Shown: in pieces, positions 10,305 to 41,080 of the stretch | How the letters are laid out: each line of letters starts with the position of its first letter | How positions within the stretch are numbered: position 1 is the first letter of the stretch | Assembly (NCBI RefSeq): GCF_900088535.1 | Contig: NZ_LT578417.1 | Location: forward strand, 1,054,001 to 1,118,000 | Origin: Cyanobium sp. NIES-981 | GTDB taxonomy: Bacteria > Cyanobacteriota > Cyanobacteriia > PCC-6307 > Cyanobiaceae | DNA: 64,000 nucleotides | Direction: 5' to 3' | Made by a program: the position numbers and the translations under genes | The notes under the pieces: model-generated | The model's database searches: none | The model's input: the letters and a program-made list of their open reading frames with translations, nothing else | What the model was told of the DNA's origin: nothing

Positions 10305-10324
10305 GCATCATAAACACACCTTTC

Positions 10325-10472
10325 ATGCATGAAGCCCATGCATGAAATCTCCATGCATGAAGTCCTTATGCATGAAGTTCCTGTGCATGCAGCTCACAGA
10401 CGCGAGTTCCCCATGCAGGGTGTAGGGATGCATGGATCCGTGATGCGGTGAACCGTGATGCCGTGGATGAAT
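10325..10472 (+). repeat. Degenerate 15-bp repeat array running into the SMR-like start codon
   Basis: ATGCATGAA occurs at 10325, 10338, 10353 and 10368. From 10338 units recur every 15 bp: 10353, 10368, 10383 (GTGCATGCA), 10398 (diverged), 10413 (ATGCAGGGT), 10428 (ATGCATGGA), 10443 (ATGCGGTGA), 10458 (ATGCCGTGG). The last unit contains the start codon of the downstream gene. Because 15 is five codons, the units from 10338 form a 37-codon open frame that ends in TGA at 10449-10451 in the same frame as the gene. Similarity is strongest in the first three to four units. Confidence 0.75.
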
Positions 10473-39270: not shown

Positions 39271-40278
39271 TCAGGCCACCAGGTAGCCCTCCAGCCGCCG
39301 CGACTGGGAGCGGATGCCCTCGAGGGCCTTGCGCTCGAGATTGCGAGTCTTGTCGCGACTCATGCCCAGGTTCTTGGCGATCGAACTCAGGCTCATCGGC
39401 TCGGTGATCCCGGCGCCCTCCGTGGCGATGCCGTAGCGCATCTTCAGCACCCGCCCCTGCAGCTCCGGCAGCTGCTCCAGCAGCGCCCGCAGATCTCCCT
39501 TCAGGCACTCCCCGTCCACACGCTCCTCCGGCAGCTCCCCATCCCCCGCCAGCAGGTCCAGCAGCTCCGTGTCCTCCCCGTCCCCCACCTTCGTCTCCAG
39601 GCTCACCGGCTGGCGCGCACGGCACAGCAGGTCCTTCACCTCCTCCTCCGGCAGCTCCACGAACCCCGCCAGCTCCGTCACCGTGGGGGTGCGCCCCAGC
39701 TCCTGGCTCAGCTCCCGCTGACCCTTCTTCAGCTTGTTCAGCGTCTCGGTGATGTGGATCGGCAGACGGATCGTGCGGCTCTTCTCCGCGATCGCCCGCG
39801 TGATCCCCTGGCGGATCCACCAGTACGCATACGTACTGAACTTGTAGCCCCGCGTCGGGTCGAACTTCTCCACGCCCCGCACCAGTCCGATCGTTCCCTC
39901 CTGGATCAGATCCAGCAGCTCCATGTTCCGCTTGGTGTACTTCTTCGCCACGCTCACCACCAGCCGCAGGTTCGCCGCCACCATCCGCTCCTTCGCCCGC
40001 CGGCCCGCCTGCAGCCGCTTCTTCAGCACCGCCGGGCTCAACCCCGCCGCCTTCGCCAGCTCCGCCGCGCTCGGCGCCGTGCCGCCCGCACGCATCGTCA
40101 GCTCCTGCTCCACCTCCTCCAGCGCCATCAGCTCCTGCACCTGCCGGCCCAGCGTGATCTCCTGCTCATGGGTCAGCAGCGGCACACGGCCGATGTCCCG
40201 CAGGTAACTGCGCACCAGATCGCCGCCTCCAGCCTGAGCGGAGCCATCGGCGGTCGCGGCCACTGGCAGGGAGGGCAT
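39271..40278 (-). CDS. RNA polymerase group 2 sigma factor (sigma-70 family)
   Basis: The 335-residue protein contains region 1.2 ([16 protein letters not shown]), region 2 ([39 protein letters not shown]...[13 protein letters not shown]), region 3 ([17 protein letters not shown]) and region 4 ([24 protein letters not shown]). It lacks the long acidic N-terminus of the primary sigma factor, so it is a group 2 factor of the SigB/SigD/SigE kind, used in stress, dark and clock-linked transcription in cyanobacteria. No clear ribosome site precedes ATG 40278. A symmetric palindrome starts 10 bp upstream. It is convergent with the M48 gene. Confidence 0.94.
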
Positions 40279-40287
40279 GACGGTCGG

Positions 40288-40318
40288 TTTACGAAACGGT
40301 TCTGTTTCGTAAATTTAC
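40288..40318. promoter_or_regulatory. Perfect palindrome between the sigma factor and pseudouridine synthase genes
   Basis: TTTACGAAAC (40288-40297), spacer GGTTCT, GTTTCGTAAA (40304-40313) is a perfect 10-bp inverted repeat. The right arm overlaps a second palindrome, GTAAATTTAC (40309-40318). On the plus strand TTTACG, 16 bp, TAAATT (40310-40315) makes a plausible -35/-10 pair; on the minus strand TTTACG, 16 bp, TAAACC gives a weaker one. It is AT-rich within very GC-rich DNA. A shared operator-promoter is the simplest reading; a leader hairpin is the alternative. Confidence 0.65.
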
Positions 40319-40351
40319 CACCCTTTTTCGGCCCTGATCCAGCATGGGGCG

Positions 40352-41080
40352 ATGGCCAGCCAGCGCCTGCAGAAACTGATCGCCACGGCCGGAGTCTGTT
40401 CACGGCGCCATGCCGAGGAGCTGCTGCGGCAGGGGCGCGTGCGGGTGAACGGCGCCGCGGCCAGGCTGGGAGACAGCGCCGATCCCGACCGCGACACCAT
40501 CGCCGTGGATGGCAGACCGCTGGCCCGGCCGGCACGGCCGCTGCTGCTGCTGCTCAACAAACCGGTGGGGGTGCTGTGCAGCTGCTCCGATCCGCAGGGG
40601 CGTCCCACCGTGCTCGACCTTCTGCCTCCGGCGCTGCAGCGGGGCCAGGGCCTGCATCCCGTGGGCCGCCTCGATGCCGACAGCAGGGGTGCCCTGCTGC
40701 TCACGAACCAGGGGACGCTCACCCTGCAGCTCACCCATCCGCGCTACGGCCACCGCAAGCTCTACCGCGTGTGGATCACAGGTGACCCCAGCCCCCGCAC
40801 CCTGGAGCGATGGGCCGCGGGGGTTCCCCTGGAGGGGGTGACCAGCCAGCCGGTGGGGGTCCGGGTGCTGCAGCGCAGCCGGCGCGGCACCCGGCTGGAG
40901 CTGGTGATGGAGGAGGGAAGAAATCGGCAGATCCGCCGCACCGCAGCCCTTCTGGGCCACCCGGTGCTGGATCTGCAGCGGGTGGGCATCGGTCCGCTCC
41001 GCCTGGGCTCGCTGGCGGAAGGGTGCTGGCGGGCGCTCGATCGCCAAGAATGGCAGGCCCTGGCCACTCCCCCCCCCTGA
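40352..41080 (+). CDS. rRNA pseudouridine synthase, RsuA/RluB/E/F family
   Basis: The 242-residue protein has an N-terminal S4 RNA-binding domain (RLQKLIATAGVCSRRHAEELLRQGRVRVNG), LLLNKPVGVLCS, the catalytic Asp in VGRLDADSRGALLLTN and EGRNRQIRRTAALLGHPV. It isomerises a uridine in 16S or 23S rRNA, and the family alone does not tell which. It is divergent from the sigma factor gene. The next gene begins 31 bp before its stop. Confidence 0.9.
   Translation: MASQRLQKLIATAGVCSRRHAEELLRQGRVRVNGAAARLGDSADPDRDTIAVDGRPLARPARPLLLLLNKPVGVLCSCSDPQGRPTVLDLLPPALQRGQGLHPVGRLDADSRGALLLTNQGTLTLQLTHPRYGHRKLYRVWITGDPSPRTLERWAAGVPLEGVTSQPVGVRVLQRSRRGTRLELVMEEGRNRQIRRTAALLGHPVLDLQRVGIGPLRLGSLAEGCWRALDRQEWQALATPPP

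Follow-up and report, generated by a model that had tools for sequence, protein, structure and literature searches.

A probable SufR operator at a group 2 sigma factor promoter in Cyanobium and related picocyanobacteria

In Cyanobium sp. NIES-981, an inverted repeat at a group 2 sigma factor promoter is very probably an operator for SufR, the [4Fe-4S]-binding, cluster-sensing repressor of the cyanobacterial suf operon, as several independent lines of sequence evidence indicate. The explanation as a whole, in which an additional copy of the sigma factor gene acquired a SufR operator within one group of Cyanobiaceae, is also considered highly likely, if by a shade less so. The repeat lies in a stretch of 64,000 nucleotides, here called the window, and its features are listed in Table 1. 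At positions 40288–40313, two perfect 10 bp arms flank a 6 nt spacer, TTTACGAAAC-GGTTCT-GTTTCGTAAA, confirming the repeat described in the first-pass annotation. Its two gene calls, a group 2 sigma factor and a pseudouridine synthase acting on rRNA (rlu), were likewise correct, with both proteins scoring above the cut-offs of their families. The sigma factor belongs to the cyanobacterial RpoD/SigA family and is non-primary, its score of 319.9 for the RpoD equivalog PRK07406 falling below 500. Among the subfamily models, SigD scored best (414 bits; cut-off 524), and PRK05949 gave 405.8 (cut-off 530).

Table 1. Features at and around the inverted repeat, in window coordinates
Feature	Position	Strand	Evidence or remarks
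Group 2 sigma factor gene, 335 aa, presumed target	39271..40278	-	TIGR02997, 426.9 bits (cut-off 384.5)
Predicted sigma transcription start	40304..40306	-	6–8 nt downstream of -10 box; inside operator
Putative SufR-type operator, core TTACGAAAC-N6-GTTTCGTAA	40289..40312		Genome uniqueness; conservation at orthologous sigma promoters; same motif at sufR/suf
Second palindrome, GTAAATTTAC	40309..40318		Junction of -10 box and operator; not conserved
Extended -10 box, TGG-TAAATT	40312..40320 (TG 40320–40319, hexamer 40317–40312)	-	TGR-TANNNT in 46/46 dyad loci
rRNA pseudouridine synthase gene, RsuA/RluB/RluF type, divergent neighbor	40352..41080	+	TIGR00093, 162 bits (cut-off 109.3)

Palindromes with 10 bp arms are not unusual in this DNA. 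The window holds eight further perfect palindromes with arms of at least 10 bp, all but one of them G+C-rich, and the dyad is distinguished by its sequence, position, and conservation, not by palindrome length alone. With up to three mismatches allowed, the full dyad TTTACGAAAC-N6-GTTTCGTAAA matched nowhere else, either in the window or across the whole 3.02 Mb genome, and none was expected from shuffled sequences. Its center, AAAC-N6-GTTT at 40294–40307, consists of two half-sites 6 nt apart with inner AAC/GTT, as in a SufR operator. According to two reviews, SufR of Synechocystis binds CAAC-N6-GTTG (PMC13421787; PMC8593673); this published core is not matched exactly by the sigma dyad, in which the outer base is A/T, not C/G. 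Elsewhere in the window, at 10321–10347, lies another A+T-rich perfect dyad of operator-like appearance, TTTCATGCATG-AAGCC-CATGCATGAAA, with 11 bp arms.

The extended -10 box ends within the dyad: the operator core begins with the last T of the box. A box of the form TGR-TANNNT on the sigma strand accompanies all 46 distinct sigma dyad loci and abuts the dyad in 45 of them; in 43 loci the dyad core starts with the final T of the box, and in two that T lies one base further in. The exception is L011, where the box ends 12 nt upstream of the dyad. Because these loci were picked by protein or by dyad, and never by the -10 box, finding the box there argues independently for a promoter. The position of the box predicts a sigma transcript starting near 40305, whose leader would measure about 27 nt; the ATG itself (40278–40276) is 10 nt from the operator core. 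Since the box abuts the dyad, the start site would lie under the operator, and the two together have the geometry of a repressor that would block RNA polymerase. Additional regulators may act at the same promoter. The junction of box and dyad also explains the second, overlapping palindrome noted at first pass: it is present in the window but is not conserved, relatives having GTAAACCTAT/C at this position. A consensus scan of 40200–40420 found no promoter of the TTGACA/TATAAT type. Both strands do contain the claimed TTTACG-N16-TAAANN, but this follows from the symmetry of the dyad alone; what looks like a symmetric TTTACG-N16-TAAA promoter coincides with the operator, and it was rejected in favor of the better supported, conserved TGR-TANNNT box.

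To follow the dyad in relatives, sigma factor homologs were taken from 60 genomes by protein search. Nine loci chosen in this way (L002–L006 and L008–L011, the NIES-981 locus included) have the sigma gene beside rlu. All of them retain 16–18 of the 18 core positions, whereas the flanks and the 6 nt spacer vary. The dyad is thus conserved in relatives alongside the gene order. Further loci came from a scan for the exact motif and from a scan for box plus operator; these were chosen by motif, and conservation of the arms there is not independent. The exact core occurred in 67 stretches among 84,980 species genomes, against a chance expectation of about four (18 fixed bases, 257 Gb). Picocyanobacterial records contributed 46 of the 67, and 42 of these lie at the sigma gene (in L077, beside rlu at the end of the sequence); the remaining four (L038, L060, L074, and L088) lie between sufR and ftrC-sufB. 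Non-cyanobacterial exact matches were found in Stenotrophomonas, Hyphomonas, Bacillus, and others, and a few are expected by chance. Four Stenotrophomonas records (L033, L042, L043, and L087) carry the exact 24 bp motif, which is more than chance would lead one to expect for one genus; these matches are probably an unrelated repeat or operator.

The evidence that points to the regulator comes from the suf locus. There, operators were located through a protein search for SufR, not through the motif. The motif was present between sufR and ftrC/sufB in 28 of 30 loci, at 13–18 of 18 positions. In an apparent exception, G036, the site is directly upstream of ftrC, so that the Cyanobiaceae sufR loci with the motif number 29 of 29. 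In NIES-981, the suf site TAAAGAAACGCCAGAGTTTCGTAA (G000:C1:2774206-2774229) lies between sufR and ftrC-sufB and agrees at 16 of 18 core positions. The motif thus recurs once elsewhere in the genome, and both recurrence and conservation of the dyad had been named in the first-pass annotation as results that would support its reading. The suf operators of Cyanobiaceae share the AAAC-N6-GTTT core with the sigma dyad, and their promoters have a TANNNT hexamer, often TAGGCT, a few nucleotides before it. In an outgroup from another family (L127), the matching place relative to the TANNNT box is taken by TTAAGCAAC-N6-GTTGTTCAA, which contains the textbook CAAC-N6-GTTG. When nine whole genomes were searched with up to three mismatches, each had two places, and all 18, assigned by coordinates, were the nine sigma and nine sufR/suf sites; the reversed pattern, run on these genomes as a control, matched three places. 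The expectation of a conserved operator at the sigma promoter, probably for one regulator, is therefore supported by the conserved core and its recurrence at sufR/suf. The sigma factor itself had also been proposed as the binder; the most likely regulator is instead SufR. A third SufR target was sought with a looser pattern, and the sites obtained were treated as background, reversed controls being equally frequent. Weak extra sites lay inside a transketolase gene (G006 and G021) or were intergenic without a clear promoter role (NIES-981). In larger genomes (L110, L154, and other sufR loci), a gene of the ferredoxin-thioredoxin reductase type, ftrC, stands between the operator and sufB; several sufR loci of small genomes (L119–L126 and L128) had no ftrC match beside sufB.

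SufR was found by protein search in 51 of the 60 genomes. NIES-981 has one copy (G000:C1:2774546-2775157, locus L110), divergent from ftrC-sufB, that passes the TIGR02702 equivalog cut-off (192.8 bits against 178.8). Its cysteines, C156-X12-C169-X13-C183-X14-C198, are invariant in 11 aligned sequences, and their spacing is that of the cluster ligands of SufR, C-X12-C-X13-C-X14-C (PMC8593673). All nine of the genomes searched whole encode SufR, as do 45 of the 46 genomes with the motif in cyanobacterial records. The remaining one, the metagenome-assembled Cyanobium CZS25K (G096, locus L082), has the sigma dyad, and SufR was not detected in its assembly, which may reflect an assembly gap. The arrangement resembles that of Synechocystis sp. 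PCC 6803, where the sufR-sufBCDS operator has the same 6 nt spacer and AAC/GTT inner half-sites (Wang, 2004; Shen, 2007; via PMC13421787 and PMC8593673). In both, the operator is at a promoter and the genome encodes a regulator with the C-X12-C-X13-C-X14-C ligands. In contrast to the PCC 6803 operator, the sigma dyad reads AAAC-N6-GTTT with conserved flanks TTACG/CGTAA, and its target is a sigma gene far from suf. It looks like, and would be expected to work like, a SufR operator of Cyanobiaceae, yet differs from the published consensus. Going from CAAC-N6-GTTG to AAAC-N6-GTTT would require a shift of specificity within Cyanobiaceae, for which the suf operators provide the one line of support.

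A different reading, and one judged highly improbable, is that a symmetric operator-promoter drives both the sigma and the pseudouridine synthase genes under an unnamed regulator or the sigma factor's own holoenzyme, by autoregulation. The two genes are divergent across a gap of 73 nt in the window, and rlu stays beside the site in most relatives. Its distance, however, is not fixed: the dyad is 8–17 nt from the sigma start codon across 56 loci, against 36–210 nt from rlu. In three loci rlu is not the neighbor of the dyad at all, its place being taken by phoB/phoR-like genes; such a pair adjoins the dyad in L047, and in L059 and L092 rlu lies about 2 kb away beyond the pair. Moreover, the dyad recurs at sufR/suf, where neither sigma nor rlu is found, and its arms do not act as -35/-10 elements, a separate -10 box being conserved. 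Since its distance varies and it is replaced in three loci, the pseudouridine synthase gene is probably a bystander, and the proposal that one regulator controls both genes, tying stress transcription to ribosome modification, is unsupported.

Comparably improbable is that another dimeric regulator with SufR-like specificity binds the sigma dyad, and also suf, beside or instead of SufR. The outer base, where the Cyanobiaceae motif and the published consensus for SufR disagree, would fit such a regulator. The suf motif, however, sits where the outgroup has a SufR operator of the known type; the motif occurs at two loci only, one of them adjoining sufR, and the genome has a single SufR homolog. 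Least credible of all is that the dyad forms a hairpin in the leader of the sigma mRNA, perhaps to control translation: the arms could pair over 9–10 bp and end 8–17 nt before the start codon, but the predicted start inside the dyad would leave most of the 5′ arm out of the RNA, the predicted leader folds no better than shuffled sequences, arm changes in L009 and L010 break the pairing, the motif is found again among other genes at sufR/suf, and no Rfam family was found at the dyad site.

With SufR as the probable ligand of the sigma dyad, a mechanism can be proposed from what is known of this repressor. Holo-SufR represses sufBCDS and sufR and loses its affinity once its clusters are reduced (PMC13421787). 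Binding by the SufR of NIES-981, repression of the sigma gene, and the physiological signal are all inferred, the latter two from the geometry of the promoter and the behavior of SufR elsewhere. When clusters are plentiful, holo-SufR would cover the edge of the -10 box along with the start site and silence the sigma gene. Loss or reduction of the clusters, as in iron limitation, oxidative stress, or over-reduction of photosystem I, would release SufR, and the sigma factor would then be made along with FtrC, SufB, and other suf products. In some picocyanobacteria, a shortage of clusters would thus turn on a general transcription factor in addition to the cluster-repair operon. A tentative and rather doubtful extension is that this two-target SufR regulon feeds iron-sulfur supply into the composition of RNA polymerase and that the sigma factor transcribes suf, iron, and redox genes, thereby closing a loop.

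The reviews name only sufBCDS, sufR, and ftrC as targets of SufR and call it dedicated to the suf locus (PMC13421787; PMC8593673). Because of this description, a sigma factor target appears to be new. A search of openly accessible papers found no report of one, and an earlier prediction may exist. Regulation of a group 2 sigma gene by a stress-sensing regulator has a parallel in Synechococcus elongatus PCC 7942, where Rre1 acts on rpoD2/sigB (Kobayashi, 2017; cited in PMC13421787). Rre1 is described in that review as a LuxR-type response regulator and activator with the proposed motif GTNCGGK, whereas the SufR-type operator would be expected to mediate repression. As the known regulator of rpoD2/sigB, Rre1 was the first guess for the sigma promoter here and was rejected, its motif not being among the conserved promoter columns. 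The SigH network of Corynebacterium glutamicum also connects a sigma factor with SufR, in the opposite direction: there the sigma factor controls sufR (PMC3489674), whereas here SufR would control the sigma factor. If the proposal is true, SufR would be an entry point to a wider response and not just a local suf regulator; a shortage of iron-sulfur clusters, a matter of concern to photosystem I and ferredoxin, would alter the promoters read by RNA polymerase; and a candidate signal would be at hand for a group 2 sigma factor. It would also illustrate how a regulon can grow when a sigma gene is duplicated and an operator is gained.

The operator is restricted in its distribution. Of 400 Cyanobiaceae genomes, 95 carry box plus operator at up to two mismatches (69 among the 251 of high quality); they fall into 10 of the 59 genera, and the control matched once. 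A few of the 95 are suf sites (e.g., G021, G193, and G331), which brings the count of sigma promoters nearer to 90. The combination was absent from many other genera in this set, those with the smallest genomes among them. Seven examined genomes have a second, closely similar sigma gene without the dyad, and the likely history is that a group 2 sigma gene was duplicated and one copy gained the SufR operator. A tree of the sigma copies, in which 20 of 46 inner branches stayed open, did not settle on a single origin of the dyad-bearing copy and had three label changes. In that tree, the sigma protein of L008 (G004) groups with the dyad-less paralogs although its promoter keeps the dyad, a placement that suggests gene conversion between the copies. 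The dyad-less paralogs (L147–L153; e.g., G000:C1:2093528-2094508) include one about 90% identical to the window's sigma factor in its own genome, and most dyad-less copies have another conserved promoter-like stretch, TTCACACTTCTTCAGGTTAGGCTTWAC.
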